From assembly GCA_016490735.1 (NCBI GenBank), contig JAEMWC010001513.1, forward strand, positions 80,001 to 144,000: a stretch of 64,000 nt of DNA, read 5' to 3'. The position numbers and the translations under genes are program-made. This DNA is from Pachyseris speciosa. Taxonomy: Eukaryota; Cnidaria; Anthozoa; Scleractinia; Pachyseridae. The notes under the pieces are model-generated. The model saw only the letters and a list, made by a program, of their open reading frames with translations, was not told the DNA's origin and made no database searches. The first letter of the stretch is position 1. Every line of letters starts with the position of its first letter. Below, in pieces: positions 43,745 through 63,612 of the stretch.

Positions 43745-44041
43745 TTGTTTTCCCCTCATGTTTTGCCTGTAAGTGATTATGGGGAGACTTCTGCTACAAA
43801 GGTTTATCAAAATCTAAGTATTAATATTTGCATCAGAATTCACATTCTGAATGTTGGAGTGGAACCATTAATATTTAACTGGTCATCAGTGTCAACCTTG
43901 CTACAGAAACTACCAAATGATCAAAGCTATTCTTCAATACACACCACTACATCAACTACATGGGTAGAATTGACAGCAGTCATCTTGTCTATCAAAACAT
44001 ATGAAGAATTAGAGTCCACATGTTCTTTGGGAGAAGTTGAG
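43745..44041 (+). CDS. Probable host exon, unrecognised, ending at the Polinton insertion
   Basis: Open for about 99 codons after a possible acceptor (GATCAG, ending 43,744) and closed by a donor, GAG|GTAAGT, at 44,041/44,042. The peptide reads like real protein (NWSSVSTLLQKLPNDQSYSS; WVELTAVILSIKTYEELEST), but I do not recognise a domain. The donor is made partly from the Polinton target duplication (GAGGTA) and partly from the first bases of the element (AGT). Low certainty; the other exons are not visible here. Confidence 0.35.
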
Positions 44042-44044
44042 GTA
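44039..44044. repeat. Target-site duplication GAGGTA, left
   Basis: Six-base duplication matching 63,607-63,612 exactly and directly abutting the terminal AGTAGTAT of the Polinton. Polintons make 6-bp duplications. Confidence 0.95.
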
Positions 44045-44352
44045 AGTAGTATAGTGTTTGGGGGTACGAAATCAATTGATCTCGTTTTCCCCAAACACTA
44101 TCTGGTCTCGTATTCTGGAATATATAGTTATTTAATTTGATGGAATATATAGTTATTTAATTTGATGGAATATATAGTTATTTAATTTGATGGAATATAT
44201 AGTTATTTAATTTGATGGAATCTATAGTTGTTCAATCTGATGGAACCAAGGTCTGCACACTTCATCTATAGTTTATTATAATGCGTGACATTCTCGGAAA
44301 AATCACCAAGCGTGACATTCTCGGAAAACAGGGAATGAGTCATCGCCTATAG
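44045..44352 (+). repeat. Polinton terminal inverted repeat, left
   Basis: About 308 bp, complementary to 63,321-63,606. Starts AGTAGTATAGTGTTTGGGGG, then has four copies of a 25-bp unit containing ATATATAGTTATTTAATTTG plus one variant, then two copies of a GTGACATTCTCGGAAAA block, ending ATGAGTCATCGCCTATAG. It has one more 25-bp unit than the right repeat. Confidence 0.93.
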
Positions 44353-45070
44353 ACGTCAGATTTTTCGCTTTTACACATGCGTATTATTTTTTATCTTTGT
44401 AAATTTCATTTATGTACCACAAGCATAAAAATGAAAATACAAACGAATATATAAGGGTTGTTTCACACAGATAAAGAGTGGCTTGTATACATAGGATCTA
44501 ACGATTGGAAAAAGCGGGGGCCTTTCGTTAGCGAAATGTATACAAGCCACCCCATGGAATAATGAAAAACCCCCGCCGTTATTCCATGGGTTGAAAAAAT
44601 AAAAAAATAATAAAAAATGAAAAATAAAAAAATGAAAAATAAAAAAAATGAAAAATAAAAAATCACCCTTAGATGGTGTCGGATTGTTGGGTAGAGCTAT
44701 AGTGAAAGCTTAGGCTTTGACAGAAGTGCCGGTTCAATCTCAAGCCGGAGGGTGAAAAAAACAAATAAACAAATACTTGGCCTCAAGAGGGTCTGATAGG
44801 GCCAGAGCGGAGTGGAGGTGGGAAAGACATAAATGATAGTGCTCTGGTGGTGTGGAGGTGGGAATTCAAAAAAACAAAACAAAAAAAACCTCTCATGAGG
44901 GACGGGTGGTGATTCAAATTCCAAATTAAGTCCCTCATGAGAGGTTCTGGTGGCCACCAGTTTTGCTATTTTTTTCTGCAGCTATAGGCGATGACTCATT
45001 CGAAAGGGAAACCCCCCAAAGAGGGTAGTATTTTAAAACTCACAAAAATCATATGGCGTGACGTCAACAG
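44353..45070. other. Polinton left subterminal region with three hairpins
   Basis: Non-coding. Hairpins: GTGGCTTGTATACAT with ATGTATACAAGCCAC (about 44,478-44,551); CCATGGAATAA with TTATTCCATGG (about 44,553-44,589); CCTCTCATGAGGGAC with GTCCCTCATGAGAGG (about 44,890-44,945). The TIR inner end recurs inverted at about 44,981-45,001 (CTATAGGCGATGACTCATTC). These may be origin, packaging or insertion-related structures; no evidence decides between them. Confidence 0.6.
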
Positions 45071-48000: not shown

Positions 48001-48875
48001 CTCTGTGGGTATTTCTCTTGTGGGTTCAGGTGTCTGATGTGACACCATCGGAAGCATTCATTATCCTCATTTTTCAAGTTAATTAAACCCTTTGCACTGT
48101 TTCTGAGTTCATTCGGTAGTTTAATGTATGAGGAGCCCTTCATTGGCGCATATTTCACAACATTGAGGTAATGGCTGTCAACAGATTCAATTGTCCAACC
48201 TGAACCTTCAGATACCCAAACTGCAATCTTATTCATTATTTGGTCTTTTGACAACTGTAGTGATTCAGTTACTTCCAGATTATTCACAATTGTTTGAGCT
48301 ACACTGTTGAAATATGCGGTTTTAAACTCTAATTGTCCATCAGTCATTTTTACAAATGTTACCTTAAGCGTTTCAACGAATTTCAGTCCTTTCATTTCAT
48401 TCAACAATTTTATAATATTATATGCAACAGCCTTTCTTGTGTTTTGCAGTTGCGCAAGCGGGTCTTTGTTATTTTTTATACCGATTTCAAAAGATTTTGT
48501 GAAGCCCTTCAGAGCTTTCTCTATTTGCCCTATCTTAGTCCTGGGTGTAGGTGTTGGTCTCTGAATCACCTGTTTGGTTCTGGGGGCTGGGATCGGTCTC
48601 TTTTTCAATTGTGCTATTTCTTCCAACCATTCTTTTGGTGGAGCTGGTAATCTTTTCCTCTCAAAATAATCAACCAATTCTTTCACAGTTGGTCTTTTCG
48701 TCCTTGGGGCGGGAATTGGTCTTGTTCTTGGTTTAGGTACTGGTTTTGTGTCATCAACTATAATAACTTTAGGCTTTTTCTGCTGCTTCAACAGCAATTC
48801 GATTAGCTTGGATTTGCTCAATTTTTTGAGACTTTTCTTGTCCATATTACTACTAGTTTCGATAATTTTTTCCAT
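45071..48875 (-). pseudogene. polB: Protein-primed family B DNA polymerase (Polinton PolB), three breaks
   Basis: Replicates the element DNA from its termini by protein priming. It starts at ATG 48,875. The N-terminal extension has four proline-rich PRT repeats (PIPAPRTK type). Then come a C2H2-like finger (HFCMHCLQCFSSERVLNDHK), exonuclease motif I FVIYADFEAI, a CHICDKKY...HCHITGKYRG zinc module, Exo II FHNLRGYDSHF, motif A YLDANNLYGWAMSQYLPTGG, motif B LMNNSVFGKTMEN and motif C FTDTDSLTYEI. It ends at 45,071. Breaks: a frameshift in a run of seven A (about 47,309-47,317), an in-frame TAG at 46,624-46,626, and a frameshift at about 45,627-45,640. All catalytic motifs survive. Upstream is a TATTTAAAC box 43 nt from the ATG, shared with the BRO-N gene. 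Confidence 0.93.
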
Positions 48876-48918
48876 TTATAATGTATCTATAGTTATTATT
48901 TCTTTAATACATTTCCGT

Positions 48919-48935
48919 CTGCGTTTAAATATGGT
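48919..48935 (-). promoter_or_regulatory. Early-type promoter box upstream of PolB
   Basis: The minus strand reads ACCATATTTAAACGCAG, ending 43 nt before the PolB ATG. It differs at only two positions from the box before the BRO-N gene (50,098-50,114). TATA-like core. It lacks the TCTAA motif seen before virion genes. Confidence 0.65.
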
Positions 48936-48979
48936 TGAGAATTCAATTGATCCAATTACTGGATCCTTTTGAATTGTAA

Positions 48980-49177
48980 TTATTGAAGAATATTTTTTTG
49001 ATGTTTTTTTGTTTTAATATGACAAGATTTTCCTGCCATTGTGTAGTTACGTCCTGTCTTACATATGTTACAGTACCATTCTTTATTTAGCATATAGGTA
49101 GTCTTGTGTTTTTTTCTTTCCTCATCACTGAGAACTCTAGGCCTTCCCCGACCTCTCTTGACATTTTGATTCTCCAT
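48980..49177 (-). CDS. Small AT-hook and zinc-finger protein
   Basis: 65 codons, intact. An AT-hook (KRGRGRPR) near residues 7-14 is followed by a Cys-Asn-Ile-Cys pair and a His..His pair (YCNICKTG ... HIKTKKHQK), together a single zinc finger. Predicted to bind AT-rich DNA, and so could be a transcription regulator or replication accessory factor of the element. It lies between PolB and the BRO-N gene on the same strand. I know similar small finger ORFs from large DNA viruses but cannot name a family. No TCTAA box; the upstream DNA is A/T only. Confidence 0.7.
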   Translation of the reverse strand: MENQNVKRGRGRPRVLSDEERKKHKTTYMLNKEWYCNICKTGRNYTMAGKSCHIKTKKHQKNILQ

Positions 49178-49210
49178 ATATAATCTATATATTTTTATTT
49201 TTATATCAAT

Positions 49211-50050
49211 TTAATTTTCTTTTAAATCTTTCCTTCGTGATAAGTATAATTTGCTTTCTTCCAAGTGTTTGGTTATTTCATGAATCAAGTCTTCGAAACA
49301 ATTGCTCATGATGTACTTACACTTATTTTTCTCATACATTTGCTTCATACTTTTTTGTTTATCTGACACTTGATACACACCAGTTGGACTTTTGAATTCA
49401 AGACATAGAGCATTGTATTTTCTAGTGGGATTCAACAGCATTAAATCACACTGACCAGCCATATATCCTTTGTTATAACTTCTGATTCTCATATTTGAGC
49501 TTATTTGATTTTCACCTAGACCGACAATCATTAAAGCATCTTCATATTTTTTTCTGATGAATGATACAATCTTGCAGTGCAGATCATTTTCACTTTCAAT
49601 CATCAGCATGTTATTACTTCTATCATTGAACTGTTTGTAATATCCCTGTTTCCTGATTGATGGTAATACTTTCGATGTAACCCAATGTTTGAATTTTACT
49701 GCTTCCTGTTTTTTAGAGGACAGTATTAGTGAATAAAGTCCAGATTCATTTACGAAGAAACATTTGAAAGTTTTTTCGGGGGTCTCAGGACGAGGGACCA
49801 TTTTTGTCCCCCGTGAATCAGTGGCCTCAGCACGAGGGACCATTTTTGTCCCTCGTGAATTTATGCTGATTTTGTGGTCTCTTAAGATTTTATCATCCGA
49901 TACAACATAATCTCTGATTGCTCTTTGTGGATTTTTATAGTCAAGAATTTTAGCAATGTCTCTTCCTCTGAACCATATTTCATTTTTATCATCAAGATAG
50001 CAATCTATTGATACATCTAATTCTTTATTATCGTAGGAATATTTTTGCAT
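49211..50050 (-). CDS. BRO-N domain protein with C-terminal PD-(D/E)XK-type nuclease domain
   Basis: Intact, 279 residues. Residues about 25-150 form a BRO-N DNA-binding domain (EIWFRGRDIAKILDYKNPQR; FVNESGLYSLILSSKKQEA; FKHWVTSKVLPSIRKQGYY). Residues about 165-265 look like a VRR-NUC/PD-(D/E)XK nuclease: GQCDLMLLNP supplies the Asp, LCLEFKSPTG the Glu-x-Lys, followed by a conserved VSDKQ. BRO-N proteins are common in large DNA viruses. Between strand and helix of BRO-N is a two-unit 14-residue repeat (SRGTKMVPR) encoded by tandem DNA palindromes (49,790-49,857). An early-type box lies 47 nt upstream, as for PolB. Role probably DNA processing; this is inference. Confidence 0.88.
   Translation of the reverse strand: MQKYSYDNKELDVSIDCYLDDKNEIWFRGRDIAKILDYKNPQRAIRDYVVSDDKILRDHKISINSRGTKMVPRAEATDSRGTKMVPRPETPEKTFKCFFVNESGLYSLILSSKKQEAVKFKHWVTSKVLPSIRKQGYYKQFNDRSNNMLMIESENDLHCKIVSFIRKKYEDALMIVGLGENQISSNMRIRSYNKGYMAGQCDLMLLNPTRKYNALCLEFKSPTGVYQVSDKQKSMKQMYEKNKCKYIMSNCFEDLIHEITKHLEESKLYLSRRKDLKEN
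49790..49857. repeat. Two tandem coding palindromes, 42-bp period
   Basis: Unit 2 (49,831-49,857) is CACGAGGGAC, a 7-nt spacer CATTTTT, then GTCCCTCGTG: a perfect 10-bp stem. Unit 1 (49,790-49,814) is the same with one mismatch. The 42-bp period keeps the frame and inserts 14 residues each time into a loop of BRO-N. Confidence 0.9.
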
Positions 50051-50097
50051 TTGTATATTATATTATAATAATTTATTTTTTTTAATTCATTTTCGAC

Positions 50098-50114
50098 CTG
50101 TGTTTAAATATAGT
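50098..50114 (-). promoter_or_regulatory. Early-type promoter box upstream of the BRO-N gene
   Basis: The minus strand reads ACTATATTTAAACACAG, 47 nt before ATG 50,050. Nearly identical to the box before PolB in sequence and position. Confidence 0.65.
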
Positions 50115-50201
50115 CAGGAATAATAATATTCTTGGCTACATAATAGCAAATAACAGATATACTGTAGGGTCTACTCACATATATGTTAGATAATTTTCTC
50201 T

Positions 50202-51165
50202 TTATAATATGTCTTTTAAATCCTTGAACGGGATCCAACTGTTAAATTCGTCACTGTAACCCTTCCACTTCACCAAAGCTTGTTTCTTCTTGTAATCTCT
50301 GCGAATGACTTTATCAATACGGAATACATCCTGTCTGGCTTTCAATAATTCAGCTTCATAAAAACTCCCTTGTATTTCTTCATCGTTGAGATCTTTTAGT
50401 TTGTAAGTGACTGGATTAGTGTATTGGATCTTATCAACTGTAAATACTTCTTCAGTCCAATTTGGTGTATAGCCCTTGTCGAACACATTCCGTTTATACT
50501 TGGATATTCGGACCTTGTCACCTATTTTAAATTTTGGTTTCTGTTTTAATGTTTTCATATCACCATACAAATTGAAGTAAACAGTTCCTTCATTCCTCTT
50601 ATCAGATGCTTCAACGGGTGTCATCTTTGTGCTTGAATGTTTGGTATTATTATACTGTTTCACTAATTTTGGTAACATGTCTAAATACTGTGTATTACCT
50701 TGAACAGTGAACTGCTTCCACATTTTGGATTTAATTGTCCTATTCCATCTTTCAACTACTGATGATTTCTCTTCATTCTCAGTTGAGTACATCTGTACAC
50801 TATGTTTCTCTAGCAAGTCCTTCAAGTGTTTGTTGTAAAACTCTTTTCCCTTGTCGACCCATAAATACTGTGGTTTTCTACCTTCCTTGAATATTGATTT
50901 GAATGCTTCAGTGACAGATTCACCTTTCTTATCCTTCAATGGGACAATCCAACCATATTTGCTGAAGACATCAATAACCATAAGAAGATATCGATAACCT
51001 TTATTCCATTTACTGAACTGTTGCATTTCAACTAGATCACTTGCCCATATTTCATCAATTTTATTTACAATCACACGCCGCCGAGTGAAATTTCGTTTTA
51101 TGGGTGCATGTAATTCATCAGCTAGTTTTTCTTGCCAGTTTTCTTCACTCGACGGCTTTTTCCGT
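50202..51165 (-). CDS. int: Polinton integrase (rve family, DDE) with C-terminal chromodomain
   Basis: Joins element ends to host DNA, making the 6-bp duplication. The clear open part runs from GTG 51,074 to the stop at 50,202. The frame is open further upstream, about to 51,165 (KKPSSEENWQ, HAPIKRNFTRRRV), inside the 3' end of the phospholipase gene in another frame, so the true start is upstream of 51,074 and unresolved. Catalytic triad: Asp in IWASDLVEM, Asp in YLWVDKGKEF, Glu in STENEEKSSVVERWNRT. The last 45 residues are a chromodomain (VIRRDYKKKQALVKWKGYSD, then FNSWIPFKDL), likely targeting modified histones. No stop or frameshift in the catalytic core. No TCTAA box found for it. Confidence 0.92.
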
Positions 51166-52061
51166 TTTTTGAAACACCGAGACCAAGTTTCTGTTTTTTG
51201 TCGATTAAGAATCTAGCTGTTTGACCCCATTTTGGCATCTCACCATATGGTATTTGATCTAGTGACTCGACCATTGTTCTATCACAATCGCCTTTATTTT
51301 TTCCCATATCATAACAAATATCGTGGTAAGCTGCTATTTCATCCACCTTATTGTAAGGTTGTACATTCCATTTCAAGACCTCGCCAGTATTTGGATCATA
51401 TTCCAACTGCTCATGCAATGGATTGTATGGTCCCATATATTTATATTTACTTGGTGTCCAACCTGCTTTTGGTTTAGGAAGCTTGCCAATTACCTTATGG
51501 ATATCAATCGCGCCTCCCATTTTATTGATTTTAGCTACCCATTTTTGTATATCTTCTGGTTTTGCATACATGATATCTCCAAGCAATGAGCCACCACGTG
51601 TATAATCAACTCCAGCAATATCTGTTTTATACATTTTTTTCTTGTCAGAGCGTTTGGGTCTAATAGCAGTGCTCAATTGCATTAAGCCTTCTTTACCAAC
51701 CTTTGTGATTGTAGGCTTTGGGAGGGAAAGTCCTTTGTCAATTAATTTCTTTTGCAGCTTTGGATTTCTCATTGCTTCTGATGCATAATATCTTCCCATT
51801 TCTACACCTTTTTTGCTAAATAAGGGACTCCATGTTCCAAAAATCCTGTTAGTGCCATATCTGCTGCCGAATCTAGTATGCCCGCCCCTTCAGACGGGCT
51901 ATTCAGTTTCCCCGATTTCTGACAAATTTAGTCTTTGTGATTCCACATTCAGCACAAGTACATCTCATCACAGTTCGACCATTTTTTGTCTTTTGATATC
52001 TTTCACTTCCTGGTACACACTCAGTCTGCTTCTTCTGTTTCACACAATATGATTTTACCAT
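51122..52061 (-). pseudogene. Zinc-ribbon plus parvoviral-type phospholipase A2 protein, two frameshifts
   Basis: Begins at ATG 52,061 with a small zinc ribbon (Cys at residue 6, Cys 15, then RCTCAECG), stops at 51,903, and continues in other frames. The breaks are in a G run at about 51,910 and an A/T run at 51,809-51,814. The long intact part (51,799-51,122, 225 codons) holds the phospholipase domain: calcium loop YMGPYNPL and catalytic AAYHDICYD followed by a downstream Asp, as in the VP1 unique region of parvoviruses, where the enzyme helps virions leave endosomes. The C-terminus is Lys/Arg-rich. The late-type motif TATCTAA lies 12 nt before ATG 52,061, overlapping the protease stop. Probably a virion-associated membrane-penetration enzyme; the role is inferred from parvoviruses. 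Confidence 0.85.
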
Positions 52062-52073
52062 TATACCATTAAG

Positions 52074-52080
52074 TTAGATA
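52074..52080 (-). promoter_or_regulatory. Late-type motif TATCTAA before the phospholipase gene
   Basis: Twelve nt upstream of ATG 52,061. Its last three bases are the stop codon of the protease gene. Confidence 0.7.
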
Positions 52081-52560
52081 TTTTTGAAGTAGTCTATGAT
52101 GAATCTGTGATTGACTCTTGTGTCTGTTGGATCAAATTCAGCATTATGTATTGTATTAAGAATGGATCTGCCTTTTTGTCTCTCAAGAAGATAGTACAAA
52201 CACCAATATCCACATAATACTGATTCCCTTTCTTGTATCTCATCACCAGAGTATTCAAGTTGTTTACCGCTTGCAGCCATGTATTTCTGTACTTCTGTTG
52301 GCATCATTAAACCGAAAGAGTCGAAGTATTCACAGTATTTATCATTTTTGAAATTCCTATAACAAACCCAATGAGTACCAGGTCCAATTTTGGAATCAAG
52401 ATTGACTATCCCACATTCATTCTTTTTTATTTGTCTCGGCAGATTGTCTCTTGAAAATACTCCTCTAAAATGTTTTATTCCAAGTTGTTTAACCCAATTG
52501 ATTAAATCAAAGTTGGATAAGGGTTTATTTACAAAATGGTTCCTAGTATGGGGATTGAAT
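52074..52560 (-). CDS. Adenain-like cysteine protease (virion maturation protease)
   Basis: Processes capsid and core proteins in adenoviruses; Polintons carry the same family. The frame is open from about 52,560 to the stop at 52,074. It reads KPLSNFDLINWVKQLGI, then the catalytic His in GPGTHWVCYRN (His codon about 52,371), the Asp in EYFDSFGL, then Gln and catalytic Cys in QERESVLCGYWCLYYL, in the adenain order His-Asp-Gln-Cys. No ATG precedes the conserved N-terminus in frame. The gene overlaps the 3' end of the upstream basic-protein gene in another frame, so its start was lost by a frameshift or uses a non-standard mode. Its last codons contain the late motif of the next gene. Confidence 0.88.
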
Positions 52561-53398
52561 TGAATGGACTGTTTTTGCCTAGTAGAAGTCCTTTTCCTTT
52601 GGTTTTTCTTTTTTTTTTCATTCCCATGCCTATTGGGTTATCCCATGTACCAAAAACAGGAGGGGATTGCCATGGAATCATAGCATGTTTCCCACCACTT
52701 TTATTTTTTGCAATGGAATCTGGAACATGAACTGGTAATGACCGTCTTGGACGGCTGCTTTCAACATGCAAACCTTTTCCAGTTAATTTTCTAATTGCTT
52801 CTATGGCTAAAGGAATACCAATGCTAGCAAGAATTGACGCAATCCCCCGTCCAGTCTGCGCTTTTGTGGGTCTGATAACAACATCACCACCAGACTGCAA
52901 TTTGCTCATTATCTGTGATAGCTGTCCTTTTGTGAGCAAGTTACCTAAGCTCAGTAATTGAGGCAGATTATTATTAGGAATCATAAAACCACCTTTTTGT
53001 CCACTTCCTTTCTTGCTGCCAAATAATTTGTCAATACCAAGACTGCCAAGTTGACTTATTGCACCTGTAGCCAACGCTGGGATAGCTTTTGATGCAGCTC
53101 TGGCAGCATAAGGCAGAAGTTTAGTTCCAAGTGAAAAAAGACTGGACCAAAGAGAGCCTCCTTCTTGGACTGATTTTCTGATCTGTGCTTTGGATATCTT
53201 TACATCAGCACCTGTTCCATTTCTCTGTGCTTTGGCTAATTTTTTTATCTGTGTTTTTGTCAACATCATTTGATCACCTCCAGTGAGATCTCCAACTCTA
53301 AGTCTCAATGTTACGGGTGAATTTGTTTGTATAGCTTTTGCAAGCCTTTCCTTCTGACTTCCTGAAAGTCTTACTCCATGAGGATGATAAGTAGTCAT
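52529..53398 (-). CDS. Basic virion-type protein, unrecognised (289 residues)
   Basis: Intact. The N-terminal third is regular and Lys/Arg-rich, with two similar KxQIxK segments (MLTKTQIKKLAKAQR; VKISKAQIRKSV). The middle is hydrophobic and Ala/Gly/Leu-rich (LPYAARAASKAIPALATGAI; GIASILASIGIPLAIEAI), compatible with amphipathic or membrane-active helices. The tail is basic (KKKRKTKGKGLL). One site, LTGG-D near residue 38, fits the adenain cleavage consensus (M/I/L)xGG-x. Position between protease and major capsid protein fits a minor or core virion protein like adenovirus pVI or pX, but I see no firm homology. No TCTAA motif before its ATG. Confidence 0.75.
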   Translation of the reverse strand: MTTYHPHGVRLSGSQKERLAKAIQTNSPVTLRLRVGDLTGGDQMMLTKTQIKKLAKAQRNGTGADVKISKAQIRKSVQEGGSLWSSLFSLGTKLLPYAARAASKAIPALATGAISQLGSLGIDKLFGSKKGSGQKGGFMIPNNNLPQLLSLGNLLTKGQLSQIMSKLQSGGDVVIRPTKAQTGRGIASILASIGIPLAIEAIRKLTGKGLHVESSRPRRSLPVHVPDSIAKNKSGGKHAMIPWQSPPVFGTWDNPIGMGMKKKRKTKGKGLLLGKNSPFNSIPILGTIL

Positions 53399-53465
53399 AT
53401 AATATATGTTTATACTAAATTGTATTTAATATAAAACAATCATTTAATTTATTTAATTATTTAAT

Positions 53466-54749
53466 TTACATTGATCTCAGAATTAATTTTCCATCAGTCT
53501 TTCTCATCTCAATATCCTGCTCATAGAGGACCAATGCATACACACTGTAATCAGCATTTGTTGCAGCACTCAAAGTGTATTTGAAAGTCAGTTTTGTCAT
53601 TCCATCTTTAATATCCTGTTTCTGTTTTGTCAGATCGAAATAAACAAAAGGGAATATTGTACCGAAATTGCCCCTGTTGAGAAGGGTACTTTCACTGAAA
53701 TCGTTTACAGCTTGAACATATTTCAAAACATCTCTAAATACTCTTGTTGGTTCTGTTGATGGTTTGTAACGAAGCTCTGGATAATCATTTCCATTACCAA
53801 CCTCAAGATAACAATCAGTCAAAGTTCGGTTATTTGCAACTGAGAATGTGTTGTACAAGAATTTATTGGCTGTCTGAGATGCATCATTGGCATCATTGAT
53901 GATGAATACAAAGACATGCCTGGGTTTGTTTATTCCTGTGGAAATACGGAAATTGGCTGTCTGCTGTCTTGTTGAATTGCCTCTCTCAATCAGTTCTCTC
54001 ATGTAAGTCCACTTTCTGTTGTCAAGATACTTGCTCATGTATAAGGACTTTCCAGTAGAATTAAAAATAATACGAGGAACAATTAGCTGGAATTTAGTTA
54101 GTACCACACGACATTCATCAGTAGCTTGCCAAATCAAATTGGCATCACTCTCAAGTGTCAATTTCACCTCTACTTTTGAGTTAGGCATGAGTTCATCCCA
54201 AAAGCTCTTGAAAAAACCGTATCTGTTCAATGCTATCTCTGCATTTACTTCACCACCACCATCAAGTAAAGCTTTACGATCTGAGAATCCTTTGTTATAA
54301 GCAGCTTGTGCCACTCTGTTTTCAGCACCTCTGCTGGTGTCAAGATAGAAGAACTCATTGGTTCCCTGACTTACAACATAACCCTGTGAATACTCAAGCA
54401 ATGACTTAATATTTGTGGCCTGGTTAGCGTCTCGGCATTCATAAACATCAAGACCATTCATTTTTACATTAATGGTGTTTATAAGAGCGTGAGCTGAATT
54501 AACAATACCATTTCGATCTGCACCAGCAATGTTACCTCCATCTGCAAGCTTGTTTACAATGAAAATAACATTTAAACGGGCATTATACCAGTCAAATGGT
54601 GTAGTCTCTCCACTGTTATCAACAACGAAACGGTAACCTGTTTTCCTCTGATGAGCATCGTTTGCTACTACAGTATTAAGTGCTGTCTCTAGTTCGAACA
54701 CTACATCTTCATATCTTTCGATATATTTTGAGTCACGATAGTTTGACAT
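53466..54749 (-). CDS. Major capsid protein (double jelly-roll type), intact
   Basis: 427 residues, one uninterrupted frame. It begins MSNYRDSKYIERYEDVVFEL and contains the beta-rich segments expected of Polinton/adintovirus hexon-like proteins (TPFDWYNARLNVIFIVNKLA; IKSLLEYSQGYVVSQG; VLTKFQLIVPRIIFNSTGKS; YALVLYEQDIEMRK). Hexon-like trimers form the icosahedral shell. Its neighbours, a penton-type protein, protease and ATPase, form the morphogenesis set. TATCTAA lies 11 nt before the ATG. Being unbroken while polymerase, penton and ATPase are broken is notable. Assignment is by recognition of the family and context, without a structure prediction. Confidence 0.88.
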   Translation of the reverse strand: MSNYRDSKYIERYEDVVFELETALNTVVANDAHQRKTGYRFVVDNSGETTPFDWYNARLNVIFIVNKLADGGNIAGADRNGIVNSAHALINTINVKMNGLDVYECRDANQATNIKSLLEYSQGYVVSQGTNEFFYLDTSRGAENRVAQAAYNKGFSDRKALLDGGGEVNAEIALNRYGFFKSFWDELMPNSKVEVKLTLESDANLIWQATDECRVVLTKFQLIVPRIIFNSTGKSLYMSKYLDNRKWTYMRELIERGNSTRQQTANFRISTGINKPRHVFVFIINDANDASQTANKFLYNTFSVANNRTLTDCYLEVGNGNDYPELRYKPSTEPTRVFRDVLKYVQAVNDFSESTLLNRGNFGTIFPFVYFDLTKQKQDIKDGMTKLTFKYTLSAATNADYSVYALVLYEQDIEMRKTDGKLILRSM

Positions 54750-54760
54750 ATATTATTGTG

Positions 54761-54767
54761 TTAGATA
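54761..54767 (-). promoter_or_regulatory. Late-type motif TATCTAA before the major capsid gene
   Basis: Eleven nt upstream of ATG 54,749; its last three bases are the stop codon of the AT-hook protein gene. Confidence 0.75.
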
Positions 54768-54997
54768 AAAGTTATTTTACGCGGTCGGCCTCTCTTTCTT
54801 TTGATTAAACCACCAGTCTGGCTCGCACTCTCAGTTCCACTCTTTCTCTTTTTCAAAAGTTCTATGATTTTGTCGCCAGCTTTTTTGCCAGCATGTTCAC
54901 CAATTGTTGTTGCTGCTTTTTTTCCAGCTGTTTTGATCATATCAGTCACAATACCTTCACCATGTTGTTCATATTTTTTAAACTCAAACCGTTTCAT
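54761..54997 (-). CDS. Small basic AT-hook protein, probable genome-packing core protein
   Basis: 78 codons, intact. Residues about 15-50 form a Lys/Ala-rich amphipathic segment (MIKTAGKKAATTIGEHAGKK), followed by an AT-hook near the C-terminus (IKRKRGRPRK). High Lys/Arg content and position between the major and minor capsid genes suggest a DNA-condensing virion protein, analogous to adenovirus core proteins; this is inference. There is a Thr-Gly-Gly before the AT-hook, but it does not fit the adenain site fully. No canonical TCTAA box: CCTAA is present but only 6 nt from the ATG. Confidence 0.7.
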   Translation of the reverse strand: MKRFEFKKYEQHGEGIVTDMIKTAGKKAATTIGEHAGKKAGDKIIELLKKRKSGTESASQTGGLIKRKRGRPRKITFI

Positions 54998-55051
54998 ATA
55001 CTATTAGGTTTTATAATTCTGTCTCTCTCAAGAATAACTCAATATACCAAT

Positions 55052-55799
55052 CTATCCATTTAAATCGACTGGAGCTCTAGAAGAGTCTGTGACATAAAAG
55101 CGTATTGAGCTGATATTATGTGTTGAGACTGGATTCCATGAAAGAAAACGAGGTTTGTAAGTGAAAGGTAAACTTCTAACGAGATCTGTGACAGGAATAA
55201 CAGCGATTGTATTTGTGCTATTTCCATCAACAATGCTATCTGTCACCAAATCACAATTGATATAAATTTCATCTACTCCTCTTGTAATATCAGGTAGATT
55301 TGTTCCATATTCTGTGGCTGGAACTAATTTTGAATCGAAACCGATAAGTTTTCTGAAATCAAGATTCCTCAGATCCACACGATAATTTTCATTGAGTTCA
55401 ATCAAAATGCGATATGTTGACAAAACGAAATACATGTTAATACCATACAGGAATTTTGATTGATTTGTCTGTTTCAGATGGATTCAGTACATGGCTGTTT
55501 TTTCTCATATACTCATGAATGTAACTATTGATATCGTCGTATGAATACATCCCGTTAACGAATGTTATTGTTTCCCAGTTTACACCTTTGTCATAGCTGT
55601 ATTTAATTTGATTATTCCCAAAAATATCTCTGATATTGTACCAACTGTATGTCATATTGATGACATTCACAGCCATTTCATATTTTAAATCATTCGTTAA
55701 TTTAAGAGGTGAATTGAATCTTTTTTCAAAATCATGAGTCTTGCTGACACCAATTTTGTCTCTGTTTTTACTGTTGAATCGTAATGAAATTTCTGTCAT
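55052..55799 (-). pseudogene. Penton-type minor capsid protein, one frameshift
   Basis: The N-terminal part (ATG 55,799 to a stop at 55,437, 120 codons) starts MTEISLRFNSKNRDK and continues with YEMAVNVINMTYSWYNI. The rest continues in another frame from about 55,435 to 55,052 and ends with SIRFYVTDSSRAPVDLNG, the typical end of Polinton single-jelly-roll penton proteins. One single-base break lies at about 55,437-55,445; total length about 248 residues fits the family. It forms the fivefold vertices. TATCTAA is 11 nt before the ATG, at 55,811-55,817, inside the end of the coiled-coil gene. Confidence 0.85.
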
Positions 55800-55805
55800 A
55801 TACTT

Positions 55806-56606
55806 TTACATTAGATATTTCATCATTATTTTATTTAGCTCACCGGTTTTCAGGATTCCCAGTCTGTTCAATGTATGCAATATATTTGTGAATTCATTTT
55901 GAACATTTTTGCTGTTGTTGCCGGCTGAAATAGTTGCACCAAGCAACTGTAAACGTGAAAGCATGTCACCCAAAAATGCACCCTTGAACCCATTCCTTTC
56001 CCTGTTTTGTATTTGTAAGAAGCTAATACATCATCAATCGTTTCTCTGTATTTCTTCAAAGTTTGTATTTCTCTTTTATGAGATTCATTTTCTTCTGGAG
56101 TGAATGATTTTTTTTTTCTTCCCATATTCTGGGCTATTTCTTTAGCTTTTTTCTTTTCCTCGACAAGTTTTTGTGGGGCGACTTGAGTCAAATCGCTTGG
56201 TTTCAAAAGCCTGTTATTTTTAATATATTCTGTCATCTTTATCGAAATAGTTATCGATCGATAATATGTTGGGTGTCCGATCCTCTTTTTCAGGTGCTTC
56301 AATTGTCAAAGGAAGTTCCATTCCCATTGTAATTGCTCTGCGATTAGCTTCAATAACATCATCAAGTCCTTGTGTTAAAGCCTGTTGATTTGTTTTCAAC
56401 TGTTTAATGACTTCATCCTGTTTTTTCGTCGACACTTTCTTTCACACTCTTCTGGACATCAATAGAGGGTTTCAGCAATTCTGATGTTGTATCATATGCA
56501 TCCTGTTTTCTGTATTCATAAGTCTTGATAACATCACGAACTTCTCTTGTTTTGTTTCCAGCTTCAATTCCACTTTTAAGAAGCCTTTTCATTCGTTTAT
56601 ATCCAT
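55806..56606 (-). pseudogene. Coiled-coil/charged protein of unknown function, several frameshifts
   Basis: The late promoter points to ATG 56,606 as the start (11-nt spacing), but that frame stops after five codons. The next start, 56,592, opens 59 codons (MKRLLKSGIEAGNKTREV). The sense then continues at 56,435-56,220 (QALTQGLDDVIEANRRAITM), then 56,302-55,868 (charged KKKAKEIAQNMGRKKKS), and finally in another frame to a TAA at 55,806 (LNRLGILKTGELNKIMMKYL). Long charged helices are likely. I do not recognise the family. Position upstream of the penton gene and a late-type promoter suggest a virion or assembly protein. Confidence 0.6.
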
Positions 56607-56617
56607 ATACAATTGTG

Positions 56618-56631
56618 TTAGACTAATCTAA
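56618..56631. promoter_or_regulatory. Palindromic divergent late-type promoter
   Basis: TTAGACTAATCTAA. The plus strand gives AATCTAA 11 nt before the ATPase ATG (56,643). The minus strand gives AGTCTAA 11 nt before ATG 56,606 of the coiled-coil gene. One near-perfect palindrome thus serves both directions at the point where gene orientation switches. Confidence 0.75.
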
Positions 56632-56642
56632 ACTATTTACAT

Positions 56643-57277
56643 ATGGAAATCCCTAATTATGATATTCAGGGTTTAAAGAATTCATTCAGACAGTTGTATC
56701 CGTATATGCCAAAAGATACATTTAGAATGTTATTGGCTGGTAATTCTGGATCTGGAAAGACAACATTGTTCATGCATCTGATTATGGAACGTTGGTCTAT
56801 TATGATCAGATACATCTTTATGCAAAAAATTTAGATCAAAGACAATATATCAATATCTTCGGAAGTAATGGATGAAATAAGCAGTCACATTGGATATCCT
56901 GCTTGGTTTGCAGTCAAGAAGAGATATTACCAGTTGAACAAATAAAAGACACAGATTTGCAGCGATTGGTTGTTTTTTGATGATTTTGTCACTGATAAAA
57001 ACAAGATCAAATCATAAGCTATTTCATTCAGGGGGAGACACAAGAACTGTTCAGTCATATATCTCACACAATCATTCTATGGCTGTCCAAATCATCAGAC
57101 TCAATTGCAGTCACTTCTGCCTTTATGATTTCCATCCTCAAGAGAAAGGAATTGATTGCACAGGAGCTTGGAATCGACAAGAAGAAATACATTGAAGCAA
57201 CCAAAAAACCATATTCCTTCTGTTATGTTGACAAGCCGATGAAAACAATCAAGAGAAATTTTTATGGTGCTGTTTAA
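56643..57277 (+). pseudogene. Packaging ATPase (FtsK/HerA type), broken
   Basis: Starts MEIPNYDIQGLKNSFRQLYP, with Walker A LLAGNSGSGKTTLF at residues about 29-42. After a frameshift near 56,800, and in changing frames, come Walker B LVVFDDFVTD (about 56,967-56,996) and the motif III-like SVIYLTQSF (about 57,052-57,076). It ends IKRNFYGAV with TAA at 57,277. About 210 codons, the usual size for the genome-packaging ATPase of adenovirus-like and Polinton elements. At least four frameshifts. Late-type motif 11 nt upstream. Confidence 0.85.
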
Positions 57278-57361
57278 TCTAATCTAATATTATATGGAAT
57301 AAATAATTTCACAAAATGTTGAAAAACAGGAGAATCCAAAAACAGAAAGAATCGAAAAATT

Positions 57362-57368
57362 AATCTAA
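57362..57368 (+). promoter_or_regulatory. Late-type motif AATCTAA before fibre gene 1
   Basis: Thirteen nt before ATG 57,382. A doubled AATCTAATCTAA also lies just after the ATPase stop (about 57,276-57,288). Confidence 0.65.
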
Positions 57369-57381
57369 CAAGATTGTATAA

Positions 57382-60300
57382 ATGGGAGTTTTTAATTCTC
57401 CACAAGATCAAGATAAAACTGAAAATGGTGAAAGAGGCCCAGCTGTCAATTGGTCCCAAGGTGAAAAAGGTGATAGAGGTGAAAGAGGTCCAAAAGGTGA
57501 TAAGGGGTGATAGAGGTCCATTTGGTTTCAAAGGTAATAAAGGTGAAACAGGTGATGGATTTAGATTAACACAAGATGGCAATTATGATATTGAAAATAT
57601 AAACGTTTGACAAATCTTGGTGATCCAGTAAATCATTATGATTCTGCTAACTTGGGATATGTTAATGATGCTGTTTTATAATTGAAGGAACACGTGTTAA
57701 TCCATTCAAATTTCTTCTTGAAGATACATCAAAACAACTATTCTTAGAATGCGAATAATCTGCAATTGGAAGATTTTGACAAAAGCCCTTACTCATTTAA
57801 TAAAATAGCCTTGTCTTTTGTTATTCCTACTGCTGGTCTTACAACTGTTTTCGTTTTGATCTGACACAATTGGAAGTTTCAAAGTACACTTTAGTTGTTG
57901 AGTTTTTATACTGATGGTAGCCCAAATAATGCAACAGTCGATGACGACAATCTGTCATCTAATTTAATTGAAAGAAAGGATTCAATAAAAAAGAGCATTT
58001 CCAAAGACTCATCTTGTTGATGGTTATATCTCAAAAGAATATTCTTCCTTGAAAAAACAAGTCATGGTTCCACATCAATGGAGTTATTGTTGATTTCACC
58101 ATATTTACAAAATAATAAAAAACATTATGTTATAGTTTATGGTGTTTTATGGATTTCTCTAATATCATTTTATCACATATTCACGACCCAGCTTTTGTAA
58201 TAGAAGAAGGAAGATTGTATTTTGATCGTGGAGCTTAAAATGAGTTTTCGTAGAATAGTCAATGTTGCATACCCTATATTAAAACAAGACTGTGCAAATA
58301 AAAAATACGTTGATGATGCTGCCATATATCTGACGAATAATAAAGCGAATATAGCATATGTTAATTCTAACTTTGTGAAAAAAGATGGAAGCGTTGCAAT
58401 GACTTCTGATTTGAATCTTGGAGGTAACAAATTGCTAATGTAGCAGTGCCAACAGCAAACAATGATACAGCTACAAAGGGGTATGTTGATACTGAAATTG
58501 CTGGAATTACTGGCATTGATGTTTCACCATTTCTTAAAAAAGATGGAAGTGTTGCAATGACTGGTGATCTTGACATGGGTGACAATAAAATAAACAAATG
58601 TTGGGGCTCCAACTCTGATAAAGATTCTGCCAACAAAAAGTATGTTGATGACCTTGTTTTTTCAGCATCTGGAGCTCAACGCAACCCATTCGCTTTTTCT
58701 GTTGAAAGATATTTCCAAGTCTTCTGCAGTCAGTGATGCAACAAACTTCAAATTGAGAAATTTTGATAGATCACCATACCACATAAACAAGTCCTCATTG
58801 TCTTTTTATCATTTCACATAGTGGTAATTTACATCCAAAATTCGTTTTAATGTGACATCTTTGAGAACAGTCAGTACACTTTTGTTGTTGAGTTTTACTC
58901 ACATCAGACCCAAGAAGTGCAACAGTCGATTTAACCTTCCAACTGTAAATACGAGATGCGGGACAGCCGTTTCAAAAAACCTTTTCCCCAAACTCCACAC
59001 GTTGATGGTTATATGAAGAAGCTTTTCCGAATCGAAAAACCAGTGGTGGTCAAGCGGCAATACAGGTGGAACTTTCCAGCACAGCTCCTGCGTCTAACAC
59101 CAAAACACATATCATCGTTTATGGGCTTATGGCTATCATACCAATTTGTCTTACTTTCTCCATGACCCAGCTTATGAAATTGAAAACGGCCATGTCGCGT
59201 TTGGTAGTAATATTGACATGAAATTGAACAAATCATCAACCTGCAGGATACCCCTCAAACCTCAAAGATGCTGTGAACAAAAAGTATGTTGATGCTGAAA
59301 TTGCTGGTATTGATGTTTCTCAAATTTCTTAAAAAAGATGGAAGTGTTATAATGACCGGCAATCAGGATTTTGGGGGGTTTATTATTAGAGGCCATGGGA
59401 TAGGAAACCAACCAGCAGATCTTGTGAATAAATCATATATTGACACTAATCTCGCATCAAAAAGCAGTATCGGTCAACTCTACTTCGAGATGGAACACAA
59501 GAAATGACTGCTAATTTAAGTCTGGCTGGTAAAAAGTGATCAACTGTGCAACAACCAAGCTGCTAACACAGATGCTGCAATAAGTTTTATGTAGATGATA
59601 AACTAAAGATATAATTGGATTTACATCTGATGGAAGCTTTGATTTTTTTAAACAAACACTTGGAGAATGTTGGCCAGATTCATACTTCAGACTTCATTGA
59701 CATGAATAATAATAAAATAACAAATTTAGCGGACGTGGTGAATGAAACTGATGCAGTGAACTTTAGAGTTTTAAATCGAGCTTCACACCATCAGAGCAAA
59801 CACTTTATTATTGAATGGAACAAATGCGATGGTAGCGGATATGAAACTTGGAGGGTATAAAATCATTGACTTAAAAGAAGGAACAAATAAAACTGATGCC
59901 GTAAATTTAGATCAATTAGAAAAAAGTCATATTTCATTGCTTCTCATCCAAAGAATGCTTTTCAAATATTTGATGAATGATATCGATGAAATTAGCACTG
60001 AATATGGCTTGACAGTTAATGGATATGTCAATTTACCTCGTTCACCACATTTGATTTTTCAAAAAAGGTTATTGATATAGACTTGAATAAGAGAAGCTAA
60101 TCATATTTACAGAGCTAGAATTGGATTTAATATGTACACAATAAAAGATGGAAAATACACTTTCATTCTTGAATGGCTATTTCCTGATTATGAAGGAATG
60201 AGTCTTAGTAGTGTAACATTCAGTGCAACTGGTGGAATTACAATTCATGAAACTGTAGGGAGAAAATTTGATAACAGAATGAAGATCATTCGAGATTTAT

Positions 60301-61170
60301 TATGGATTGAAAAACCATCAGCAAGTTCACCCATGAATTTTATATTGTACAATACATATTAATGCTAACCCAACTTATCCAATAAGTACAAAGTTCATTG
60401 TGTTGCATATGGTATTGATTTTGAAGCTGTAGACGTTCCATCAAGTGTTTACGACTTCTCTGAACCTTTCAAAATCGTGAATGAAATAATACAATTAACT
60501 GATTTGGATTTGAATGTTTTTGACGTGAAAAGAAAATGAAAATTGGTTGTTTGGTGGAGACAATGGCGAATTGACAATGCTAATATATTATAATGAACAG
60601 CTATTTAATAAAGAGAGGCTAAATTTTGGTGGTGATTTAAATCTAAATGGCCATAGAATTCATAATAATGGTTTGAAACTATTTCGTTCAAGCGTTACAG
60701 GGTGTAATTATGGAAACAGCTTTCGATTTGGGTGGATTTGCTCTTTACAGGCCGAAATTAGGAGGTGATCTAATTTGAATGGGAATGGAATAATCGGTCA
60801 AATACATATTTAAACTGCTTGTCAAAGCCAATCGAGGACATGATAAGAATGTTTTAAAGCTGTATTGATAAATGGCTCTGAATTTTTAGTTATTCACAAC
60901 AATACTTTCATATTAAGAATATGTATGTATTACAAGGAACAAAACCCGGAATATTCTACTTCAAGACAAAAGCTGAAGGTGGTGGGCTTTTGCCATTACC
61001 AGCAACTGTTTATGAACACAGACATAATACTATGAGTAGAAATCACAACCGGTTACGTCAACAAAATCATTATCGAGAGGCTATCTTAAAATTTAATTGA
61101 TTATTTTCACACATCTAATACAGGCGCATTTGATACAACATTCACACTTGAAGTGGTCATGATTATCTAA
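57382..61170 (+). pseudogene. Fibre-like gene 1: collagen-like start, then phage-tail-fibre-like repeats
   Basis: Starts MGVFNSPQDQ, then Gly-X-Y repeats (GEKGDRGERGPKGDKG), then in shifting frames at least seven modules of a repeat resembling bacteriophage tail fibres: SVAMTGDLDMGDNKINKCW, DSANKKYVDD, NNKITNLADVVNETDAVN, GDLNLNGHRIHNNG. Between them is a repeated beta-rich domain (RNFDRSPYHINKSSLSFYHF at about 58,750; EDFDKSPYSFNKIALSF at about 57,765). It ends FDTTFTLEVVMII at TAA 61,170, which forms part of the next late motif. Frameshifts every 100-250 nt. By analogy it would be a trimeric receptor-binding fibre on the virion vertex; this is inference. About 1,260 codons if continuous. 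Confidence 0.7.
61164..61170 (+). promoter_or_regulatory. Late-type motif TATCTAA before fibre gene 2
   Basis: Twelve nt before ATG 61,183. Its TAA is the stop codon of fibre gene 1. Confidence 0.7.
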
Positions 61171-61182
61171 ATTAATATTATA

Positions 61183-62160
61183 ATGGGAGTTTTCAATTCT
61201 ACACAAAATAGAGGCCCAAAAGGTGATAGAGGTGATGCTGGTGCAATTGGTCCTAAAGGTGATAATGGAAATGGTTTTTACATTAACACAAGATGGTCAT
61301 ATGATCTTGGAAACAAACATTTGACTAATGTAAAAGCAGGCAATGATTCTGATCAATGTTGTAATCAAATCAAAGTTTCAGATATTGTCAGAGATAGTTT
61401 TTTGATTTATGGGTTTCTGAATTCACAGATTATACTCTAAATGTACTTATCAAATCGATAGAGCGAATAATAATTTTCTAGATATGAATGCAGACAGAAA
61501 AGTTGAAACATTGTACGATCTCTCGAATGAAGAAAATAATGCAACGCAATGCAACGCAATGCAACGCAATGCAAACACAAGTAAAATCTATTGGAATAAA
61601 AACATATTGGAAGTTTTACAGCGGCTAACAGAAGTGGTAGTCGGCAAATGACTTTTGGTGATTTGGATCCTAGCTCCATCGCACCTCTTGACGGTAGTGT
61701 TATTTTTTTCTGTGTGTACTTGGATTCTATATTAGACGAAAAAACAATTTCAGATCATCATCAAATTTTAATCCAACGATATAATATAAATGAACAAAAT
61801 AATTAGATATGTGAGATGGTTTACTCGGGATGCGAACGGAAAAACCTTGGTGTTGACAAGAGGATTTTGAAATCAGCTTTGGTTTATCAGTTTCTATATC
61901 ACAAACATTTTAACAAGTATGTTGAGTTAGAGATATCCTTTTGGAGCATGAAAGAACATTGGATTAATTGGATATGGTGATGGTTGCCTGACATATTTGC
62001 TGGAGCATACTCTTGGATGGATTAATGTGTTGCAAACACATGCAATATTACATGATGCTTTCGGTCGATTCTACGTCAAACATTCACTTGACAGAGGATA
62101 TTCTTATGCTTTCCCACTGTTCATGACAATGAAATTTAACAAATTGTCACTCTAAGTGGA
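61183..62160 (+). pseudogene. Fibre-like gene 2: collagen-like start, same N-terminus as gene 1
   Basis: Begins MGVFNSTQNRGPKGDRGDAG, almost identical to the start of gene 1, with a Gly-X-Y run (GAIGPKGDNGNGF) and one tail-fibre-like unit (LGNKHLTNVKAGNDSDQ). The frame closes at 61,440. Later sense fragments such as DANGKTLVLTRGF (about 61,830), GYGDGCLTYLLEHTLGWINV (about 61,974) and FGRFYVKHSLDRGYSYAFPL (about 62,060) suggest a separate C-terminal domain. A GCAACGCAAT decamer array (61,540-61,574) interrupts it. A second, shorter fibre arising by duplication and then diverging is the simplest reading. Heavily broken. Confidence 0.6.
61540..61574. repeat. GCAACGCAAT decamer array in fibre gene 2
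   Basis: Just over three units of GCAACGCAAT. It probably expanded after the gene decayed. Confidence 0.9.
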
Positions 62161-62217
62161 CAATTGTCTGGTTTGTGGTACTGTGTGTTGAACAGAATCG
62201 TTATATAAGCATATTGT

Positions 62218-62705
62218 ATGAAAGAGCGAAAAAGCATATTCAGCTGGAACCATATTTCAGGTGAATTAACAGAAGATCAGGTAAATGAATTAAAAGCCTA
62301 TTACCACACATATCACAGAAAGTGTTGGGCTCATAAACAGGCTGTTAAACGGTTCAAAAAATGGAAATTACTGGGGAATTCCTTGTCCATCATCTTTGCA
62401 ACTGGGGGTCTCGCCACAAGTGTGGCAACAGGTGGTGTTAGTTTGGTAGCCATCAGTACAGCAGCACTTTTGGATACAAGGGTGGATGAAGCATAAAAAC
62501 CTAGATTTGAAAATCCAGAATTGCACATATGCTTATCAAAGCTATCAACATCTACTCAATTCAATAAAAGACAAGTTGAGAAGTGGTGATTTTGATGCTT
62601 CAAGTATACAAATCTCAATGAAAGAATATTGACGATTATGTGACTGACAATAGTCCAATTATTGATAAGTACCTACTGAAATATGATGAAAAATTCACTG
62701 CTTGA
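62218..62705 (+). pseudogene. Polinton right-end protein with hydrophobic hairpin, two frameshifts, function unknown
   Basis: Starts MKERKSIFSWNHISGELTED. Residues about 25-45 are Tyr/His/Lys-rich (KAYYHTYHRKCWAHKQAVKR), followed by a Gly/Ala-rich hydrophobic stretch (IIFATGGLATSVATGGVSLV) that could form a two-helix membrane hairpin. The frame shifts at about 62,480 and continues with YAYQSYQHLLNSIKDKLRSG, then shifts again near 62,630 and ends at TGA 62,705. I recall similar proteins near Polinton fibres in cnidarians but know no function. No TCTAA motif; TATATAA lies about 14 nt before the ATG. Confidence 0.55.
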
Positions 62706-63320
62706 TAATACGAATAATCTTATCAAATCTCAACAATAGAATCTCAACCAATATCGATCATAAAATCCAAGCGTCTTTTTTGATCTAGTAACTATTATTT
62801 TATCAAATGGAAGATCAAGCATTAAAAATATTTGCTTAAGCATAAATTTCGTACTTATCATCCTTTTACGATTCTTATTCACCAAAGGAAGGAGTGTCTA
62901 TCTCTTGGAATATTTTCAATATTTTGCTTTTATCTTTTACAGAAATTTGAAGTCCATTTTACAACATATATCATTTATCACATTTTCAATATGGTACTTC
63001 CGATGATATACAGATTTTCGCCGTATTTTATACATATTATTATGAAAGTCAACGTACTCTTTACAATAGTCATAGCTGTGGACTGAACCGCAATTTAGAC
63101 AAACATTTTCCAATCATCGTTAAACATTTTCTGATTATCACAGCAAGGTGCTTTCACACTTTTAACAACTTTGACCAATAGCTGATCACAAAATAACATG
63201 ACAATTCTCCCATATTCTTTAATTCATTGTGGATTACTGAATTACAACTCATTCTATAATATTATGTGATATTTTATTTTTTTATGTAACCATCGGATGG
63301 TTCCACGTGAGAAATAATAG
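62706..63320. other. Polinton right subterminal region
   Basis: Very AT-rich. One 84-codon ORF (62,832-63,086) is Ile/Phe-rich and unrecognised. No hairpins as strong as those at the left end. Nothing else supported. Confidence 0.4.
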
Positions 63321-63606
63321 CTATAGGCGATGACTCATTCCCTGTTTTTCCGAGAATGTCACGCTTGGTGATTTTTCGAGAGAATGTCACGCATTATAAT
63401 AAACTATAGATGAAGTGTGCAGACCTTGGTTCCATCAGATTGAACAACTATAGATTCCATCAATTAAATAACTATATATTCCATCAAATTAAATAACTAT
63501 ATATTCCATCAAATTAAATAACTATATATTCCAGAATACGAGACCAGATAGTGTTTGGGGAAAACGAGATCAATTGATTTCGTACCCCCAAACACTAATA
63601 CTACTG
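63321..63606 (-). repeat. Polinton terminal inverted repeat, right
   Basis: About 286 bp, inverted relative to 44,045-44,352. Starts CTATAGGCGATGACTCATTC and ends CCCCCAAACACTAATACTACT after three 25-bp units plus a variant. There is one extra base near the tip (AATACTACT against ATACTACT). Confidence 0.93.
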
Positions 63607-63612
63607 AGGTAT
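63607..63612. repeat. Target-site duplication GAGGTA, right
   Basis: Exact copy of 44,039-44,044. Confidence 0.95.

Follow-up and report, generated by a model that had tools for sequence, protein, structure and literature searches.

In the giant virus CroV (Cafeteria roenbergensis virus), 124 late genes are preceded by the motif TCTA in AT-rich surroundings (PMC5294985). The motif is also present in mavirus and type 4 EMALEs (endogenous mavirus-like elements; PMC8547959) and in ChlorV (PMC13196603). Among viruses of animals, white spot syndrome virus (WSSV; Nimaviridae) of shrimp has mostly TATA-less late promoters with a start motif, ATNAC, below an A/T-rich stretch; its early genes look like RNA polymerase II promoters with a TATA box, and its late machinery is an open matter in that work (PMC1550435). 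Late genes of the gammaherpesvirus KSHV (Kaposi's sarcoma-associated herpesvirus) have a TATT element read by a viral mimic of the TATA-binding protein (PMC6590836), and the upstream conserved sequence (UCS) of yeast linear plasmids, ATNTGA, lies 20–40 nt before the start codon (PMC6211774). For the Polintons (Mavericks) of animals, we found no report of such a motif, and no account of how the elements are expressed, among the open-licence papers that our searches listed: the portions used of a vertebrate Maverick study do not mention a promoter motif (PMC8097293), and the word "promoter" is absent from PMC11071308, PMC11071296, PMC8363768 or PMC10120064. Here we describe a short motif before most virion genes of a Polinton in the stony coral Pachyseris speciosa. 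The element lies in a stretch of 64,000 nt (GenBank assembly GCA_016490735.1, contig JAEMWC010001513.1, positions 80,001–144,000, forward strand), which we call the window and in which all coordinates are given.

In this Polinton, the heptamer WATCTAA (W is A or T), or in one case the variant AGTCTAA, stands 11–13 nt before the start codons of most virion genes (Table 1), and within this genome the motif is constant in position, specific to one gene class and conserved. A sequence-only reading of the window had listed seven of the eight sites, all of which we find, with their spacers, exactly where it placed them; it had missed the site before ATG 57,294, where, as divergent copies show, a fibre gene (MG[ILV]FN...) begins that is broken in the window. 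For penton, coiled coil and fibre we keep the labels of that reading. As in CroV and mavirus, the core is TCTA, the flanks are AT-rich and the site is close upstream of virion genes. In contrast to those systems, the host is an animal rather than a protist, the motif is extended to WATCTAA with a spacer of mostly 11 nt, the early motif of mimivirids, AAAAATTGA, shows no enrichment in the window (2 copies, against a mean of 4.9 in shuffles), and the replication genes inspected lack the TCTAA motif. The likeness to the CroV/mavirus motif, as far as the sequences go, is real but short.

The AT fraction of the final 20 nt before the starts is 0.82–0.85, compared with 0.65 across the element. The spacers, said earlier to end mostly in TATA or TATAA, do so at three of the eight sites; four end in TAT and one in CAT. 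The motifs of the coiled-coil and ATPase genes stand head to head between these divergent genes. The TATCTAA of the zinc-ribbon gene supplies the TAA stop codon of open reading frame (ORF) 52,074–52,307, and that of the major capsid protein (MCP) gene supplies the TAA of ORF 54,761–54,997; by reading, the motif also supplies the ATPase stop codon in divergent copies. Supply of the preceding gene's stop codon, suggested earlier for three cases, is borne out for these two window ORFs; at the penton gene, the stop codon of the preceding gene lies, by reading, in the spacer and not in the motif. Altogether, TCTAA is found 11–13 nt upstream of 8 of 10 virion starts and of none of four replication-side starts, namely those of polB, an AT-hook gene, Bro-N and the integrase, the last of which is uncertain (Fisher p 0.015). 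Not entered in this comparison were the starts at 61,790 (AATCCAA at 13 nt) and 62,218 (motif-free), the internal frames 56,236 and 47,289, and the phospholipase A2 (PLA2) frame 51,799, which is motif-free and adjoins the zinc ribbon in relatives.

Table 1. Positions of the Polinton and of the motif sites upstream of its genes.
Feature	Positions	Strand	Context
TATCTAA	52,074-52,080	-	12 nt before zinc-ribbon (DUF5679-like)/PLA2 start 52,061
TATCTAA	54,761-54,767	-	11 nt before MCP start 54,749
TATCTAA	55,811-55,817	-	11 nt before penton start 55,799
AGTCTAA	56,618-56,624	-	11 nt before coiled-coil start 56,606 (frame broken in window)
AATCTAA	56,625-56,631	+	11 nt before ATPase start 56,643
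AATCTAA	57,276-57,282	+	11 nt before ATG 57,294, fibre gene
AATCTAA	57,362-57,368	+	13 nt before fibre start 57,382
TATCTAA	61,164-61,170	+	12 nt before fibre start 61,183
TATAAAA	55,009-55,015	-	11 nt before basic-protein start 54,997
TATAAAC	53,408-53,414	-	9 nt before minor capsid/protease start 53,398; TCTAA not there
TTTAAACGCAG	48,919-48,929	-	43 nt before polB start 48,875
TTTAAACACAG	50,098-50,108	-	47 nt before Bro-N start 50,050
TATAGATA	48,884-48,891	-	8 nt before polB ATG
Polinton, 19,561 bp	44,045-63,605	.	terminal inverted repeats and target-site duplication

The heptamer as such is not over-represented. The whole window contains 25 copies, which is below the mean expectation of 35.3, and the genome contains 275,372, with no excess over the 288,818 copies of the backward pattern. 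Its placement agrees with the earlier judgement that chance is an unlikely explanation: of the 804 ATGs on both strands between 44,980 and 63,340, seven have WATCTAA 11–13 nt upstream and all seven are gene starts, joined by the coiled-coil start if AGTCTAA is counted too. TCTAA alone precedes 10 of the 804 at this distance, including the ATGs at 45,212 and 60,785, where no gene start is recognised. The longer pattern WATCTAA-N8-TATATG, with at most one mismatch, has six matches in the window, five of them at these starts, a total reached in 0 of 100 shuffles. Motif discovery with shuffled controls, which the sequence-only reading had proposed for related cnidarian Polintons, was run on starts of the window element as a de novo test of any k-mer at any 3-wide distance against 1,000 dinucleotide shuffles. 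With 16 starts, five of which had been named partly because of the motif, it returned TCTAA in 8 of 16, a result equalled by none of the shuffles (6-mers, 0/1,000; 7-mers, 2/1,000). With the 11 starts defined by ORFs the signal was weaker: ATCTAA preceded 4 of 11 (10/1,000 shuffles), and the corresponding values were 54/1,000 for 7-mers and 170/1,000 for 5-mers. Because this strict test is only modestly significant, the decisive evidence comes from other copies.

Copies were compared within a single genome, the 984-Mb assembly of one animal. In it, TATCTAA-N8-TATATG has 4,129 matches, compared with 19 for the backward control. A first look gave 4,480 candidates for the MCP family, of which the 98 scored are 94–100% identical and 96 are without an internal stop; such near-identical, intact copies suggest that this Polinton family spread recently. 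The penton family gave 2,767 candidates (150 scored). Start-by-start counts were made in 106 fetched loci and the window element, with starts recognised by N-terminal peptide expressions; 24 of the 130 loci fetched were left out (8 irrelevant, 2 repeating the window and 14 chosen by the motif). In the fetched loci, TCTAA stands 9–13 nt upstream of 79/79 MCP, 65/65 penton, 37/37 ATPase, 31/35 coiled-coil and 7/8 fibre starts, or 32/32, 24/24, 14/14, 7/11 and 7/8 distinct 96-mers, respectively, numbers that are not independent because the copies are related. The coiled-coil misses read TATCCAA (three) and AGTCGAA (one), and at the missing fibre start (locus L099) TATATAA replaces TATCTAA. The motif precedes just 34 of 11,469 other ATGs in these loci at this distance and none of the replication-side starts (polB 0/3, AT-hook gene 0/3, Bro-N 0/1). 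No zinc-ribbon start was recognised by the peptide expressions in the counted loci.

More diverged copies of the MCP gene show where the constraint lies. In 20 variously diverged copies, taken from the matches to a foreign query, the motif reads TATCTAA in 19 and CATCTAA in one; the spacer is 11 nt throughout, and the sequence farther upstream is quite different in many of them. Pairwise divergence among 21 MCP starts (these copies and the window) is 0.014 in the motif, 0.119 in the spacer and 0.191 in the five upstream bases, and 0.079, 0.030 and 0.255 at the first, second and third codon positions. The conserved block begins a few bases upstream of the motif and reaches up to the ATG. Over 30 loci, the window being one, the frequency of minor variants near the start, compared with farther up, is 0.0013 versus 0.025 for MCP and 0.004 versus 0.028 for penton. 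The start itself is well placed: 14 aligned MCP homologues begin at the window ATG or one residue later, except for one extended protein. Two foreign MCP queries, for which 98 and 97 candidates were scored out of some 4,480 each, found no match much closer to the foreign protein (63–67%) than the window family is, a result that leaves room for other MCP families. No relatives were found in IMG/VR with the MCP, an MCP alignment, a polymerase piece or a protease alignment as the query.

Among the first 100 entries in the list of 4,129 genome-wide matches, 14 sites that differed from the window family in spacer or surroundings were picked and about 480 nt were read at each; being chosen by the motif, they test what follows it rather than how frequent it is. 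Thirteen of them immediately precede the start codon of a Polinton gene, which is the MCP gene at three sites, the penton, coiled-coil and fibre genes at two each, the protease gene at one and the zinc-ribbon gene at three. The two fibre assignments are weak BLAST matches, and the three zinc-ribbon assignments were made by reading, together with an adjoining PLA2 in two cases and a sub-threshold DUF5679 match in one. At the fourteenth site (L129, G000:C1:2007510-2007990), a perfect TATCTAA-N8-TATATG precedes a 91-residue ORF without a Pfam match.

Two virion genes depart from the pattern, and this and several further observations weigh against a virion-gene promoter class, in addition to the relatedness of the copies and the modest significance of the strict 11-start test. 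TCTAA at 9–13 nt is absent from all 30 protease starts in the fetched loci and is found at only 1 of 65 basic-gene starts. At the basic gene, variation does not fall near the ATG (0.065, compared with 0.056 farther up), and at the zinc-ribbon gene it is greater near the ATG (0.102) than farther up (0.057), with TATGTAA in 7 of the 30 loci; the others have TATCTAA at 12 nt (20) or 9 nt (2) or are misaligned (1). The element also has WATCTAA away from recognised starts, at 47,088, 50,186, 57,561, 60,640 and 61,803, and the heptamer alone is therefore not sufficient. The protease upstream block is conserved nearly like that of MCP (0.004 versus 0.050 farther up), and the divergent locus L119 has TATCTAA 11 nt before its protease start. 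Seven divergent copies of the basic gene read TATAAAA (5), TGTAAAA (1) and AATCTAA (1, copy L090), a pattern from which TATAAAA-like and TATCTAA elements may be exchangeable at this gene. In the window family, the motif includes the stop codon of the protease gene. Of 1,063 protease homologues, 120 were listed, and the last residue is isoleucine in 50 of these and methionine in 17; isoleucine ends would fit such an overlap (ATC-TAA), weakly, because three codons encode isoleucine and many homologues have another last residue. As regards the site at 50,186–50,192 (TATCTAA, minus strand), it lies just past the integrase ORF, 5 nt before an ATG-TGA, and recurs in one other locus; it is perhaps the remnant of a broken small gene.

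The replication genes may have a promoter class of their own. The pattern TTTAAACRCAG has just two matches in the window, before polB and Bro-N (at least two were reached in 1 of 100 shuffles), and two divergent copies retain TATAGATA upstream of polB, at distances of 11 and 13 nt from the ATG. From these two window genes and a few copies, we tentatively assign TTTAAACRCAG to a promoter class of replication genes.

The conservation and placement of the motif block indicate that it very probably functions as a promoter. The idea of a late-gene promoter class put forward by the sequence-only reading stands in part, as far as a fixed distance before most virion genes, absence from the replication-side starts inspected and retention in divergent copies are concerned. 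We propose that most virion genes probably carry their own core promoter of about 25 bp, which would be made up of WATCTAA at about 11 nt from the start codon and an AT-rich context ending in a TAT that usually abuts the ATG, and would give near-leaderless mRNAs. A normal TATA box is unlikely, as a start site 25–30 nt below the motif would fall within the coding sequence. If the block is a promoter, transcription must begin at the motif or between it and the ATG. It is reasonably likely to begin at or just after the motif, that is, at the motif's own A residues or between the motif and the ATG, and the mRNA leaders would be about 0–15 nt long. The virion-gene class is likely switched on late, with polB and Bro-N using the tentative other promoter (TTTAAACRCAG about 45 nt upstream). 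As the reader of the motif, we somewhat favour the host RNA polymerase II, perhaps helped by a DNA-binding protein encoded by the element.

Late promoters of KSHV use the host polymerase, and there a variant TATA-type element marks the late genes. In contrast to the Polinton motif, which ends 9–13 nt before the ATG, TATT is located some 30 bp upstream of the transcription start, a spacing that is impossible in the Polinton if the ATG is used. Among animal viruses, WSSV offers the nearest working analogue, with structural genes that share a mostly TATA-less motif; its ATNAC start sites are 30–220 nt from the ATG, unlike WATCTAA at 9–13 nt. Like the UCS and the poxvirus early element, the Polinton motif is a short element near the ATG of each gene in a compact genome. 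UCS plasmids and poxviruses encode their own RNA polymerase, for which no match was found in 15 translations of the window.

An alternative is that a dedicated late machinery, rather than the host polymerase II alone, reads the motif. This could be an unrecognised factor or polymerase of the element, or a large DNA virus that infects the same cell and whose late promoter is of the TCTA type, in the way that CroV probably serves mavirus. A motif 11 nt before each ATG, with scarcely room for a leader, is arranged as in viruses that encode a polymerase themselves, the median distance from the poxvirus early element to the start site being 12 nt (PMC6211774), and the TCTA late motif is common to CroV and mavirus (PMC5294985, PMC8547959). 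CroV encodes its polymerase and mavirus uses a helper. The 15 window translations gave no polymerase match by Pfam, several of the frames being broken; no helper virus was seen, and none was searched for; the likeness to the CroV/mavirus motif amounts to four letters, and AAAAATTGA is not enriched. On balance, we regard a dedicated machinery as unlikely, and the motif need not imply, as suggested earlier, an own or a helper transcription system. A bolder version, which we rate as rather doubtful, is a two-stage programme with a dedicated late system, in which a factor of the element directs initiation at WATCTAA or an as yet unseen large DNA virus of animals is needed; candidates for the factor are the AT-hook/zinc protein at 48,980–49,177 and the zinc-ribbon protein.

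The block could instead act in the mRNA as a translation leader, with the true promoters farther upstream. In favour of this, it is strand-specific and reaches right up to the ATG, with a TAT at its end that hardly varies. However, the strongest constraint falls on the distal TCTAA and not just on the bases beside the ATG, no common sequence was seen above the block in the MCP copies inspected, and the two blocks that stand head to head between divergent genes also count against a leader, which we consider quite improbable. CTAAY resembles a branch-point sequence, and TCTAA(C/T) might accordingly be a splice branch point or a trans-splice acceptor signal. At the MCP, ATPase and coiled-coil genes of the window, however, no AG occurs between the motif and the ATG, and genomic copies retain the blocks as DNA, which makes a splice signal very hard to sustain. 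A coincidence in AT-rich sequence, with starts chosen to fit, could draw on the strict 11-start set and on the short or broken frames headed by some window starts (57,294, 56,606 and 52,061); yet relatives have longer genes beginning at the same ATGs, and the excess of 4,129 over 19 matches and the rarity of the motif before other ATGs leave coincidence barely credible.

The element was compared with the typical features of a Polinton/Maverick. Terminal inverted repeats were matched at about 44,052–44,352 and 63,321–63,597, and the 6-bp target-site duplication GAGGTA flanks the element at 44,039–44,044 and 63,606–63,611. The integrase is retrovirus-like (rve, 40.2 bits, Pfam cut-off 32.6) and has a chromodomain. 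The polymerase is split into four broken frames, one of which matches DNA_pol_B_2 at 22.3 bits, under the cut-off of 25.8, and the capsid matches the double jelly-roll family PF21738 by sequence profile alone (E 5.1e-5, 23.1 bits, under the cut-off of 27). The ATPase matches Pox_A32 at 22.9 bits (cut-off 22.8), the protease has a likeness to S273R and adenain by profile at only E 0.007–0.038, and further Pfam matches are Bro-N and PLA2; DUF5679 is a sub-threshold match in the zinc-ribbon protein of a relative. That the host is an animal, as the sequence-only reading had it, agrees with 70 matches to the Wnt family in this genome and none in 14 control genomes.

Some features of the window stand apart from the motif. 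Two ORFs (52,074–53,398, minus strand) correspond to a single frame of 439 residues in locus L039, with a minor-capsid-like part followed by a protease weakly like African swine fever virus S273R and adenain by profile. In the polymerase region, ORF 46,624–47,289 (minus strand) matches Endonuclease_7 at 26 bits (cut-off 23.6), beside the sub-threshold DNA_pol_B_2 match. The ORF at 48,980–49,177 (minus strand) encodes a 65-residue protein with AT-hook-like and zinc-finger-like stretches by reading and no Pfam match, a candidate DNA-binding regulator. Positions 28,001–30,000 have an extreme strand bias (GC skew -0.95, AT skew -0.38) and are probably a simple-repeat array.

Maverick particles had not been observed as of the 2021 vertebrate study (PMC8097293). 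A strongly constrained virion-gene motif in a family whose candidate copies number in the thousands points to selection on the expression of virion genes, which is expected of a virus rather than of a plain transposon. The 25-bp sequence also provides a handle for searching other animals and for comparison with RNA 5′ ends. Finally, on the rather doubtful reading of a dedicated late system, Polintons, virophages and giant viruses might all have inherited the TCTA late promoter; common descent with the giant-virus promoter, if established, would be relevant to how this whole group of viruses arose.

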